Of a DNA stretch of 64,000 nucleotides, positions 12,167 to 16,834 are shown one piece after another. Under the pieces are notes generated by a model. It saw only the letters and a program-made list of their open reading frames with translations. It was not told where the DNA came from and searched no databases. Origin of the DNA: an uncultured bacterium (GTDB lineage: Bacteria > Chloroflexota > Anaerolineae > J036 > Brachytrichaceae); the NCBI GenBank assembly GCA_903873965.1, contig CAIQQO010000235.1:1-64000 (forward strand), read 5' to 3'. Made by a program: the position numbers and the translations under genes. The first letter of the stretch is position 1. Every line of letters begins with the position of its first letter.

Positions 12167-13051
12167 CTAGCCCTTCAACCCGCTGGCGACCATGCCCTGG
12201 ACAAAAAAGCGCTGTAATAGAAAATACACCAGTGCGGGCGGCCACGTGGCCAGCAACGTGCGCGCCATGATGGCAGGATAGTTCGACAGGCCGAAGGGCG
12301 AGAAATACTTCTGGACCGATATCTGCATCACCATTGTGATCGGAAACCACTCCGGGTGGCCGGCGACGGTCATGCTGGGCCACAGATAATCGTTCCACAC
12401 GCTCAGAAAAGTGACGATGGACAGGGCGACGAGTGGGGGCTTGAGCAATGGACCGTAAACGCGGAAAATGATGGTGAGAAAACCTGCGCCATCCATTTTG
12501 GCGGCATCTTCATATTCACCCGGCAACATATCAAACGACTGCTTCATTAAAAATATCGCAAAGGGTGATACCCAGCCATAGGCGAACAGGATGGCCCAAC
12601 TGCCGATGAAACCGGTTCCACCCTGCCCGAGGATGGTGTTGCCGCCGACCAGGGGGAAGCGCGCGATGAGCACGTATTGCGGCACGATCATGAGAATAGC
12701 GGGCATGAGCATGCCTGAGAGAAAGAAGAGAAACACCTTGCCCCGACCAGGGAAGCGCAGCTTGGACAGAATATAACCGCCGATTAAGCCGGTGAGGACA
12801 TTGATGACGAGATAGAACAAGACGCGTTGTAATGTGAACACGTACGACTGCCACATGCCGTACGCCATCGCCGATCGGTATAACTCGATGTTGAGCGTGT
12901 CGGGGATGGGGAAGATCACCGTCTCCAGAAAGCGTGGCGTGGTGGTAAACGACGCGAGTACCATGTAGAGGACGGGATAGACCATGATAAAACTGGACAG
13001 TGATAGGAAGATGTAAGTGAGTATCCGTCCGGTGCGTTGAGTCAATTTCAT
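12167..13051 (-). CDS. Carbohydrate ABC transporter permease (MalG type)
   Basis: A 294-residue inner-membrane permease with about six helices. The EAA loop that contacts the ATPase reads EYEDAAKMDGAGFLTI, followed by PLLKPPLVAL as in MalG-family proteins. Such permeases work with a MalF partner, an ATPase and a binding protein, none of which is in the window. It is therefore an orphan here, possibly the last survivor of an operon or partnered from elsewhere. Predicted leaderless: GATAAT is 9 nt before the ATG. Confidence 0.9.
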   Translation of the reverse strand: MKLTQRTGRILTYIFLSLSSFIMVYPVLYMVLASFTTTPRFLETVIFPIPDTLNIELYRSAMAYGMWQSYVFTLQRVLFYLVINVLTGLIGGYILSKLRFPGRGKVFLFFLSGMLMPAILMIVPQYVLIARFPLVGGNTILGQGGTGFIGSWAILFAYGWVSPFAIFLMKQSFDMLPGEYEDAAKMDGAGFLTIIFRVYGPLLKPPLVALSIVTFLSVWNDYLWPSMTVAGHPEWFPITMVMQISVQKYFSPFGLSNYPAIMARTLLATWPPALVYFLLQRFFVQGMVASGLKG

Positions 13052-13145: not shown

Positions 13146-15638
13146 ATGGCAAATACAACTGAACCGCCGCTGTTGCCGGAACAGCGCGCTATCGTGGAAC
13201 ATATCAAAGGGAGCGTGCTGGTGTTGGCGCCGGTGGGCACGGGCAAGACCCGCATCCTGGCTGAGCGGGTGCTGAACGCGATTGCCGGCGGTATCCCGGC
13301 GGAGCGCATCCTGTGCGTTACTTTTACCAACCGCGCGGCGCAGGAGATGCGCGATCGCATGGTGCGCTACGACGCGGAAGCTGCGCGCAAGGTCACCGTA
13401 AAGACGTTTCACGCTTTGTGCTGCACCATGCTGCGCGCGGAATCACGGCGCATTGGCTTGCCCTCCGACTTCGTGATCTATGACGAGTATGACTCTATGG
13501 AACTCGTGCGCTCGATCTGGCGACTTGACGGCGATAACGATGACCAGGTTAATCGCAATGCCTTCAACGTGTTGAACGATATCGGTGCATGCAAAACTGG
13601 CGCACCACTTGATGTGCTACGGCTGGACGCCATTCCGCGCGAGGTGTTTGCGCGCCATCTTGAGCCGTTTACCACCAATGCCTTGCGTTACCAGGCCAGC
13701 CTGCAGCAGCGGCATGCGCTGGATTTCGCCGATCTGGTTTATTACGTGCGCGCGATGTTATATACGACTGACGACATCGCGCAACGCTGGCGAGAACGGT
13801 TCGACTTATTGCAGATCGACGAGGTGCAGGATACGCACATGGATGAGTACGAGGTTGTGCGTGTGCTGGCGGAACGCTCTGGCAACCTGGCCATGATCGG
13901 CGATGTTGACCAGACGATATATGAGTGGCGCGGCTCTGATCCGGATGCGGTGCTAGGCCGCTTTGCGCGAGAATTCAGCCCGCGCGACTACAAGCTGAAG
14001 TTCAATCACCGCGCGACGAAGATGCTGATCAACGCATCATCAACTTTTGCATCACACTTCACTAATCGGCGCGCACCGTGCGAACCGTCGCCTGACTGCG
14101 CACCTGGTGAGTCTGTGCTGTTGCATAGGGCGCCGAATGAACAGGCTGAAGGGCAATGGATTGCGGCGCAGATCAAGAAGCTGGCTGCGCAGAACGGGTC
14201 GGGATTTTTGTATAGTCGTGTGGCTGTGCTGGCTCGAACGCACAATCGCAACAGTATTATTTCCGATGCGCTGGAGCAACAGGGTGTGCCGGCAGTGACT
14301 GTCGAGCAATTCGAGTTTTTTCGCCGTCAGGAAATTCGCGATGCTATCGCCTACCTGCGCCTGATCATCAATCCATTTGATTCGAGTTCAGCGCGCCGCG
14401 TGGTAGAGCGGCCAACCCGCCGCATCGGGCAGCAGACCGTCGACGCGATTGTCAGCCAGGGCGAGGCGTGTGGATTGCGGCTGGCCGATTTCCTGTCTGC
14501 GCGCACGTTTCAGGGTGAGCCGTATCAGCGGTTACTCAATGTGTATGCCTCCGATCGCATCGTGGTGTTCGATACAGAAACGACGGGGATTGAACTGGAC
14601 GCTGAGATCATCGAGTTGGGCGCGGTATTACTCGTCAAAGGTAAGGTGGCAGCGGAGTTCCACGAATATATCCGCCCATCCGGACAGGTAGGCGCGTCGC
14701 AAGCGGTGCATGGGATCAGTGACGCATTCCTGGCGCTGAATGGTCGCTCTGCACGCGAGGTGTTAAGCCGGTTTCTGGCGTTTATCAGTGGGGCGATGGT
14801 GGTGGGGCATAACGTGGACTTCGATATTCGTCTGCTGCGCGCCAACGTGCATCAAGCTGGGCTGACGCTGAGCCAATTGGACTGGTACGACACGCTCGAC
14901 TTGGCACAGCGTTTTGTGGACACTGATGACAGGCGCCTGGTCGCACTCGCTAGTCACTTTCACCTGACGCCGCGCAAGGCACACGGGGCGTTGGATGATT
15001 CGCGCACCACGGTCGAGTTACTTGGCAAGCTGATTCCACTCGTGCAGGCGAAGTCACTCACGCGCGCGCAACTCGTCAACCAGCATGGCAGGAATTTCAG
15101 AGAAGTAGCAACCCAGTTCTCCGAATGGCACGCCGCGCTGCAAACGACGCGCCCGCCGGATCTCCTGAACCGGATATTGCAGGAGTCTGGACTGATCGAG
15201 TACTATCGCCGGGACGCTGAGAGTTCGCGGCGCATGCGCCACCTGGCACAACTGAGTAACCTGTTTGCGGAGCGTGACGAGGGAAGGAAACACCCCGATA
15301 CAGCGTTGCGCGAGATCACCGAATATGCGGCGCTGTCTAAAAATGTTGACCACTTATCGCGCAGCGACAACCGAGTTCCGATTATCACGATTCATCAGTC
15401 GAAAGGACTGGAGTTTGACACTGTCTTTATCGCGGGCCTCAGCGAGGGCGAGTTCCCCGATTTCAGGAGCACACAAGGGCGCAAACTTGAAGAAGAAAGG
15501 CGCTTATTCTATGTGGCCATGACGCGCGCGAGAGTACGGCTTGCGATCAGTTGGCATCTTTTCCATAGAGGCAGGTCTTGCTCTGAAAGCGTCTTTATCA
15601 ATCAAATTGGTACACAATATGCCAGACGGGACACATGA
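13146..15638 (+). CDS. UvrD/PcrA-like helicase with internal DnaQ-type exonuclease domain
   Basis: An 830-residue SF1A helicase. The Q motif is near Gln13, Walker A is GTGKT (31-35), motif II is DEVQD (225-229), and DVDQTIYEWRG is motif III. The C-terminal motifs TIHQSKGLEFD (His750) and LFYVAMTRAR close the motor. Between the halves, residues ~470-640 form a DEDDh 3'-5' exonuclease: DTETTG (476-481), HNVDFD (555-560) and HGALDD (613-618, HxAxxD). All catalytic acids are present, so both activities are expected in one chain. The exonuclease sits where PcrA has its 2B subdomain. Likely role: unwinding coupled to 3'-end trimming in repair. GGAGGGG precedes the ATG. Confidence 0.93.
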   Translation: MANTTEPPLLPEQRAIVEHIKGSVLVLAPVGTGKTRILAERVLNAIAGGIPAERILCVTFTNRAAQEMRDRMVRYDAEAARKVTVKTFHALCCTMLRAESRRIGLPSDFVIYDEYDSMELVRSIWRLDGDNDDQVNRNAFNVLNDIGACKTGAPLDVLRLDAIPREVFARHLEPFTTNALRYQASLQQRHALDFADLVYYVRAMLYTTDDIAQRWRERFDLLQIDEVQDTHMDEYEVVRVLAERSGNLAMIGDVDQTIYEWRGSDPDAVLGRFAREFSPRDYKLKFNHRATKMLINASSTFASHFTNRRAPCEPSPDCAPGESVLLHRAPNEQAEGQWIAAQIKKLAAQNGSGFLYSRVAVLARTHNRNSIISDALEQQGVPAVTVEQFEFFRRQEIRDAIAYLRLIINPFDSSSARRVVERPTRRIGQQTVDAIVSQGEACGLRLADFLSARTFQGEPYQRLLNVYASDRIVVFDTETTGIELDAEIIELGAVLLVKGKVAAEFHEYIRPSGQVGASQAVHGISDAFLALNGRSAREVLSRFLAFISGAMVVGHNVDFDIRLLRANVHQAGLTLSQLDWYDTLDLAQRFVDTDDRRLVALASHFHLTPRKAHGALDDSRTTVELLGKLIPLVQAKSLTRAQLVNQHGRNFREVATQFSEWHAALQTTRPPDLLNRILQESGLIEYYRRDAESSRRMRHLAQLSNLFAERDEGRKHPDTALREITEYAALSKNVDHLSRSDNRVPIITIHQSKGLEFDTVFIAGLSEGEFPDFRSTQGRKLEEERRLFYVAMTRARVRLAISWHLFHRGRSCSESVFINQIGTQYARRDT

Positions 15639-15763: not shown

Positions 15764-16834
15764 TCACGTTTCACACCACGTGTTGAATTTTCGTTTTGCT
15801 GTATCCAGGTCGGATGCCCAGTCGATCATCGTGAAGCCGGTGCGAATCTGTTCGCGTTGGGTTTCAGTCAGGCCAGTTGTCCATTGCCAGATCATCACAC
15901 CCGCAGCCCTGCAAACTGCGTGCATCGTTACTGGATCATAAAATACGCCTTGATATGGATTCACCGCCGTCAGGTTGCGCATCTGAACCAGGCTGCGCCA
16001 CCAGGCTTTTCCGTCACCGCACCAGTGGACGCTGCCGCTGAATTCGTCCAGCAACCGCTGTGTATAGGGTTTACAGAATGTGTCATACATTTTGCCACTC
16101 ACCATGACGCCAGCATCTTCGCGAACGCAGACGCGACCTAGAGCGTTGGGTGTCGCATGGAACGGAATACCATCTATCGCTTGATGTGCCCGTGAGAAAG
16201 CGCTGATCGTTTCTGTGACAAGTCCTAGAAAAGCATGAACCAGGTTGGGTTCTTCAATCATGGCCAGGAAGATCTCACTTCCCCAGATCACCTCCCCCGC
16301 GTCAAGTGGTCCCTGCGTATCGGCCAGGTCAATACTCACCCATTTGCGCAGATTGGGGTAGGGTTGTAGTACATCACGGAAGAACGCAACGGTGTCCAGT
16401 ACGCGTCCGCCCAGTCCACTGCGCAGATTCGGCACACCATTCGATACATGCGCTCGGATGCGCTCAGTGTCGTGCAATGGCAATGCGGCCGGCAATACAC
16501 CATGATCAAAATGCCTGATCTCGCAACCGAATATCGATGGCAGAATACCTGTGCCGTAGTTGGCCCGAATCATCGGCAATCGATCGTCTTTGAGCAGGCA
16601 CGATGCATAAACAGGCGCCAGTTCTGACACCAGCATTTTCTCCATGTCCGCCTGTATCTCGTCCATGCTGTATTGCGGCCAGTCCGGCGCATCATAAAAA
16701 ACGATGAAAGGCAGGTGTGAAATGGGTTGATAACTCTGACAGTCGCGCCACAGAGCGCGCACCCGGTCGAGGTGTACAGGATCGATGAGCGTTTCCAGTC
16801 GGTCCAGGCAACGCTGCGTTTCAGATTGAAGCAT
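15764..16834 (-). CDS. Uroporphyrinogen decarboxylase/MetE-like fold protein
   Basis: A 356-residue protein that resembles the URO-D/methylcobamide methyltransferase superfamily in overall pattern. The decisive visible feature is an H-W-C motif (SVHWCGDG), the HxC half of the zinc site of MtaA/MtbA-type methyltransferases. True HemE active-site motifs are not recognisable and no heme genes are nearby. Many such proteins sit in carbohydrate or aromatic catabolic clusters with unknown substrates. GAAGAAGGA lies about 8-9 bases before the ATG, and TACAAT further upstream. It is divergent from the beta-helix gene. Confidence 0.65.
   Translation of the reverse strand: MLQSETQRCLDRLETLIDPVHLDRVRALWRDCQSYQPISHLPFIVFYDAPDWPQYSMDEIQADMEKMLVSELAPVYASCLLKDDRLPMIRANYGTGILPSIFGCEIRHFDHGVLPAALPLHDTERIRAHVSNGVPNLRSGLGGRVLDTVAFFRDVLQPYPNLRKWVSIDLADTQGPLDAGEVIWGSEIFLAMIEEPNLVHAFLGLVTETISAFSRAHQAIDGIPFHATPNALGRVCVREDAGVMVSGKMYDTFCKPYTQRLLDEFSGSVHWCGDGKAWWRSLVQMRNLTAVNPYQGVFYDPVTMHAVCRAAGVMIWQWTTGLTETQREQIRTGFTMIDWASDLDTAKRKFNTWCET

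Follow-up and report, generated by a model that had tools for sequence, protein, structure and literature searches.

A DEDDh exonuclease nested in subdomain 2B of a UvrD-like helicase: an orphan member of the catalogued RTasHel family

What is a 3'-to-5' exonuclease doing inside a UvrD-like helicase, and with what does such a protein work? The forward-strand open reading frame at 13146..15638 of the window (the whole 64,000-nucleotide stretch of DNA that was analysed) starts with ATG, has no internal stop and encodes an 830-residue SF1A helicase of the PADLOC RTasHel family, with a DEDDh exonuclease lying within subdomain 2B; all features given below for this gene are on the same strand. The UvrD/REP N-terminal half, comprising 1A and 1B (residues 11-270, positions 13176..13955; Pfam PF00580, 207 bits), contains the Walker A motif (residues 28-35, 13227-13250) with Lys34 and Thr35 and the DEVQD box (residues 225-229, 13818-13832), both conserved in relatives, and Gln256 and Arg289 are likewise present. 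UvrD_C gives a single match to residues 282-804 (318 bits) that is broken by the exonuclease insert. The first part of 2B (residues ~385-470, 14298..14555) is followed by the DnaQ-like exonuclease (residues ~471-635, 14556..15050), by the second part of 2B (residues 636-742, 15051..15371) and by the C-terminal half of 2A, which matches UvrD_C and UvrD_C_2 and carries helicase motifs V and VI with their residues (residues 744-803, 15375..15554). Motor motifs I to VI and subdomains 1A, 1B, 2A and 2B thus all occur, as in SF1A helicases. The RNase_T family matches residues 473-626 over its full profile (1-164; 81 bits, E 2e-22), and within this fold the DxE, D and HxAxxD residues of the DEDDh enzymes are found in ExoI (DTETTG, Asp476 and Glu478; 14571-14579), ExoII (HNVDFD, Asp560; 14808-14825) and ExoIII (HGALDD, His613 and Asp618; 14982-14999). 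The architecture is real, and a chance match is excluded. A chimeric or frame-shifted assembly artefact is ruled out because the same domain order recurs in a relative from the same genus, present as two contig pieces that are 48% and 45% identical to the window protein, and in relatives from several phyla.

Are both active sites intact? A preliminary description of this DNA held that a complete exonuclease lies inside a complete SF1A motor and that every catalytic residue of both enzymes is there. The Pfam matches and motifs agree with the first statement, and the second is borne out by the relatives, since the residues are kept in every covering member of a 25-sequence alignment (A3). Exonuclease residues Asp476, Glu478, His613 and Asp618 are identical in 25 of 25 sequences and Asp560 in 24, the remaining one (L110) having a gap. 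Among the motor residues, Gly754, Glu756 and Arg794 are identical in all 25, Asp225, Glu226, Gln256 and Arg289 in 24 with one gap, and Lys34 and Thr35 in 23 with two gaps. The alignment was drawn from loci spanning the exonuclease to motif VI; it omits L096, L102, L109 and L112, which are G+C-rich and of uncertain start or frame, as well as L113, which is split over three frames, and it retains the truncated L091 and L094 together with L110. In a second alignment (A4), the five DEDDh residues are invariant across nine rows of a longer form of the protein. Two single copies deserve separate mention. The 719-residue copy of an Akkermansia metagenome-assembled genome (L110:6582-8741) has ExoI and ExoIII and lacks the ExoII stretch in the alignment; judged from its sequence, it is possibly nuclease-dead or damaged. 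The copy of Clostridium sartagoforme AAU1 (L113:6520-9121) is broken into three reading frames, and that of the related strain NM50 (L107) is intact.

How does the exonuclease sit with respect to 2B? The preliminary description put it at the place of this subdomain, which is half right: it does lie in the 2B region, but 2B is retained and the exonuclease is nested within it. PcrA (1pjr) aligns with the window protein in two stretches, PcrA residues 14-435 with query residues 11-440 and PcrA residues 466-618 with query residues 656-802. The gap between PcrA residues 435 and 466 faces query residues 441-655; therefore the insert lies inside 2B, where a section of ~215 residues holding the exonuclease stands in for ~30 residues of PcrA. 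This alignment and the predicted structure rule out that 2B was replaced by the exonuclease. The first part of 2B also contains, just before the exonuclease, a GIG-like helix-hairpin-helix stretch (residues ~424-436), which in UvrD touches duplex DNA.

An AlphaFold2 model computed from 25 aligned sequences (mean pLDDT 89.4, pTM 0.85) keeps the exonuclease in 2B and not outside the motor, the outcome by which the preliminary description had proposed that its account be judged. Against the model, Foldseek ranks UvrD and PcrA structures highest, for the most part in complex with DNA. In VIA-align comparisons, which cover Foldseek's top chains only, the model superimposes on Deinococcus radiodurans UvrD (4c30_I) with Z 40.9 and an rmsd of 2.8 A over 610 of 638 residues, and model residues ~468-635 superimpose on the DnaQ domain 8h18 (Z 23.0, 2.1 A, 167 residues) and on the Staphylococcus aureus DinG exonuclease 9ii8 (Z 23.2, 1.8 A, 168 residues); the exonuclease scores Z 23.2 against PolC (9qpc). 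Among solved structures, the exonuclease itself is closest to PolC and DnaQ. These matches to UvrD and to DnaQ-type folds indicate that motor, 2B and exonuclease are each complete.

To which family does the protein belong? The PADLOC model RTasHel (PADLOC-DB PDLC03802, reverse-transcriptase-associated helicase, class DRT) matches query residues 10-825 to profile positions 7-673 of 675 with 680 bits in one stretch of 816 residues; its best members, L092 and L089, reach 1123 and 1088 bits. Ordinary UvrDs match this profile up to position ~383 and resume at ~528-551, whereas in the same-genus relative the half that bears the exonuclease runs through positions 341-674 in one stretch, so the profile includes the exonuclease. 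It follows from the full-length match that the architecture first seen in the window is that of a catalogued family; with this model in PADLOC-DB, at least 28 loci and a longer form in 31 of 396 genomes of the window's class, it extends well beyond this gene. The model probably derives from the work of Mestre et al. 2022 on reverse transcriptases (RTs) of the UG/Abi groups. A search of open-licence papers found none naming the family, its inserted exonuclease or the exchange of partners described below, and none reporting a prior biochemical characterization, which the preliminary description had named as grounds for setting its proposal aside. The window gene is thus a new, orphan member of the RTasHel family, already catalogued in a public model library.

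Comparison with better-known systems delimits this family further. The window protein shares all motor motifs and the four subdomains with UvrD, PcrA and Rep, but differs from them in the exchange of ~30 residues of 2B for the exonuclease section, and it falls far below the NCBIfam equivalog cut-offs (pcrA 384 vs 911, uvrD 328 vs 1144 and rep 330 vs 951 bits). In AddAB, RecBCD and AdnAB an SF1A motor and a nuclease likewise share one polypeptide. The AddA and RecB nuclease is a C-terminal PDDEXK domain behind the motor, in enzymes that are heterodimers or trimers, whereas the nuclease of the window protein is a 3'-5' exonuclease of the DEDDh type lodged in 2B, and no C-terminal PDDEXK domain was seen; the corresponding cut-offs are also missed (recB 156 vs 696, addA 151 vs 708 bits). 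The suggestion in the preliminary description of a one-protein analogue of AddAB- or RecBCD-like processing is speculative. Gabija GajB, a UvrD-like helicase of an anti-phage system, lacks such an insert and acts together with GajA, a nuclease of the OLD type; that GajB pairs with a separate nuclease is stated in PMC10781630. The best GajB model gives at most 296 bits in two stretches split by the insert, and no OLD-type gene adjoins the window gene, which is therefore not a GajB. S. aureus ExoDinG similarly fuses a DEDDh exonuclease, of the same fold (Z 23), to a DNA helicase; its helicase, however, is an SF2 5'-3' enzyme and its exonuclease is N-terminal, as PMC11981726 states for exonuclease-fused DinG. 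The dinG_rel model matches window residues 472-627 only and the motor is SF1A, so the protein is not an ExoDinG. Finally, a DEDDh exonuclease that interrupts another domain is already on record for PolC-type DNA polymerase III (PMC3985635), although there the host enzyme is a polymerase.

How widely is the architecture distributed? The window's form, here called short, occurs in two of 396 genomes of its class, both in the window's genus (two of five genomes there); the remaining 34 matches at the same threshold are ordinary UvrDs that match only the first half of the profile, and the window genome also carries an ordinary UvrD. The long form of ~980-1100 residues, whose count of 31 of 396 includes several contig-cut pieces and one genome (G185) matching only the first half, is enlarged in 2B by ~170 residues that precede the exonuclease (for example, L062:661-3810 and eight more rows of A4). 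This extra section, which may resemble a DHH-type motif, matches no Pfam family at E 0.1 in three of three proteins. A scan of genome contigs yielded at least 80 loci, of which at least 28 span the exonuclease to motif VI; among the loci listed, record titles name Cyanobacteria, Bacillota, Verrucomicrobia, Ignavibacteria, Acidobacteria, Deltaproteobacteria and Bacteroidota. In a plasmid collection, tblastn found a relative in Acetoanaerobium noterae (98% covered, 32% identical) and others in Chryseobacterium, Phocaeicola and Prevotella; those with a listed gene bear the annotation '3'-5' exonuclease' or 'ATP-dependent helicase'. Close relatives are scattered among the cyanobacteria, where a sample of the phylum has them in 11 of 386 genomes. 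A phage origin is weakly countered: none of 161 matching phage records covers at least 80% of the query, and viral contigs, searched with poorly chosen patterns, gave one locus. Around the window gene, the repeats found in a search for mobile-element borders are all short and of low identity, and G+C does not change sharply.

In a tree of 627 helicase-core columns, a split with ultrafast support of 100 divides all 36 exonuclease-bearing proteins, which come from several phyla, from the 15 canonical PcrA proteins, the nine long-form proteins form a clade (support 100), and the window protein with four cyanobacterial proteins is set apart from the rest (support 100). Beyond the exclusions made for the alignment, the tree omits L091, L094, L110 and the same-genus relative. 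The sequences suggest one old insertion followed by spread across phyla, a reading limited, as is the root, by a canonical set drawn from one class only.

Does the window copy have a partner? Both neighbours are metabolic, lie on the opposite strand and have no PADLOC hit: upstream and divergent is an ABC-transporter permease (12167..13051, minus strand; BPD_transp_1, Pfam 46 bits), and downstream and convergent is a uroporphyrinogen-decarboxylase-like gene (15764..16834, minus strand; Pfam 26 bits). An adjacent partner gene is thereby ruled out. No RT was found on the window contig. The window genome, ~75% complete, yielded no UG14 or UG35 RT; the candidates for a partner elsewhere in it are weak generic RT matches of at most ~40 bits, whereas true UG14 and UG35 members score 696-1372 bits. 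The window copy is an orphan without a local partner. Because neither contig nor genome has such an RT, we count the protein as RTasHel by its sequence without assigning it to a DRT system.

The relatives present a different picture. An RT adjoins the gene in six of the 11 cyanobacterial relatives (G396, G399, G686, G805, G488 and G791), typed by PADLOC as UG14 or UG35 in two and by similarity as UG35 in four, where our tally of RT counts and genome sizes predicts ~0.12 of 11 to have an RT within 4 kb by chance. In Moorena (L092) the UG35 RT overlaps the end of the helicase-exonuclease gene, and in Nostoc mirabile (L089:5778-10642) a compact operon places KilA-N 13 bp before this gene and a UG14 RT 42 bp after it. 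In addition to the six, L090 has a UG35 RT 12 bp upstream. The C-terminal part of this KilA-N protein matches PADLOC BstA. Together with the PADLOC name and its class DRT, these adjacencies could mean that the protein is a dedicated partner of UG-type RTs, one that opens hybrids of cDNA and RNA and shortens either strand from its 3' end, while copies lacking an RT would be relics or act with an RT in trans. We consider this unlikely. The 24 loci compared outside the cyanobacteria show no RT within the fetched flanks by comparison of coordinates, neither RT type turned up in the ~75% complete window genome, and intact, conserved copies stand alone or beside a restriction-modification pair: the other five cyanobacterial relatives comprise two solo copies (G752 and G704), one cut by the contig start (G579) and two (G496 and G551) whose immediate upstream neighbours are a HindVP-type nuclease (521 and 517 bits) and a C5 methylase.

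More is learned here than from any other observation by looking at one chromosomal slot compared in three cyanobacterial genomes. In L182:6536-14340 the slot holds a UG35 RT and the helicase-exonuclease, whereas in L184:4119-10226 and L186:4048-10004 it holds a HindVP nuclease, a C5 methylase and the helicase-exonuclease. The flanks of L182 are shared with L184 and L186 (a 212-residue gene product 95% and 94% identical and a 98-residue one 92% and 93% identical, respectively), a 237-residue product is common to L182 and L184 as well (95% identical), and the helicase-exonuclease of L182 shares 86% and 85% identity with those of L184 and L186, respectively. The helicase-exonuclease is kept and only the partner differs. 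Other neighbours, each type in one or two loci, are RhuM (L068), RhuM with DUF1016 (YhcG) (L100), DUF1016/YhcG (L118), a 1612-residue TmtA-like Sacsin ATPase/SF1 protein directly upstream on a Chryseobacterium plasmid (L067:145-7574) and, on a Prevotella plasmid (L069:1-12493), a same-strand cluster with PP2C, FGE-sulfatase-like and FtsK genes. In most non-cyanobacterial loci examined, the neighbours are metabolic or unrelated.

Because RT adjacency is far above chance and partners are exchanged at one locus, we propose that the protein is an accessory helicase-nuclease that processes 3' ends and is common to exchangeable defence modules, the window copy being an orphan; we give this reading a probability of about 45%. 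The relatives' neighbourhoods suggest defence modules rather than only the resection of breaks. Against it speak the solo copies, including the window's, the metabolic neighbours and the stable long form. The same facts would fit a chromosomal DNA-repair enzyme that acts on crosslinks or on 3' ends that are damaged or blocked, in the manner of S. aureus DinG, with the defence neighbours of relatives incidental. The long form is retained by 18 genomes of one family within the window's class, for which at least 20 genomes are listed, and so has the appearance of a stable chromosomal gene; the window gene forms a single cistron amid metabolic genes; S. aureus DinG, a DEDDh exonuclease with an SF2 helicase, is reported to need both activities for crosslink repair; and the fold of its exonuclease ranks with the nearest ones found. 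Such a repair role is the main rival and only somewhat less likely than the defence reading, since the short form is sporadic in both the window's class and the cyanobacteria, and since the frequency of RT neighbours and the exchange of partners fit modular defence better.

How might an accessory role in defence modules be carried out? The SF1A motor is predicted to be an ATP-driven 3'-to-5' translocase or helicase, and the exonuclease carried on 2B is predicted to be a working 3'-to-5' enzyme. We propose that the protein would unwind or track along DNA and trim or degrade the 3' ends that the 2B arm presents, and that the exchangeable partners, UG14 and UG35 RTs, the restriction-modification pair and possibly KilA-N, RhuM and DUF1016 proteins, would make or mark the ends to be processed. 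The window copy may act alone or with something encoded elsewhere in its genome. In UvrD-type motors, 2B is directed at the duplex in front, whereas the strand being tracked has its 3' end at the rear, so degradation coupled directly to unwinding, as the preliminary description had envisaged, is not an obvious mechanism. UvrD-type helicases need rotation of 2B for activation, according to PMC10781630, so an insert in 2B could regulate the motor. On this basis the inserted domain could be merely a structural brake or DNA clamp on 2B, its nuclease activity being unimportant, a suggestion that we regard as very improbable given that all five DEDDh residues are kept in every covering member of the 25 and in the nine long-form rows. 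More broadly, and tentatively, we propose that the helicase-exonuclease with its 2B arm is a shared, interchangeable effector or processing tool from one ancient insertion, which many phyla have plugged into unrelated defence modules and in which movement of 2B gates the exonuclease.

If the proposal of a shared accessory enzyme is correct, RT-based immunity, restriction-modification and perhaps KilA-N and RhuM systems would be linked through one helicase-nuclease, and the UG14 and UG35 systems would gain a testable downstream processing enzyme. Furthermore, the protein is a natural construct for asking whether an SF1A motor can, by rotation of its 2B, turn a nuclease on and off.
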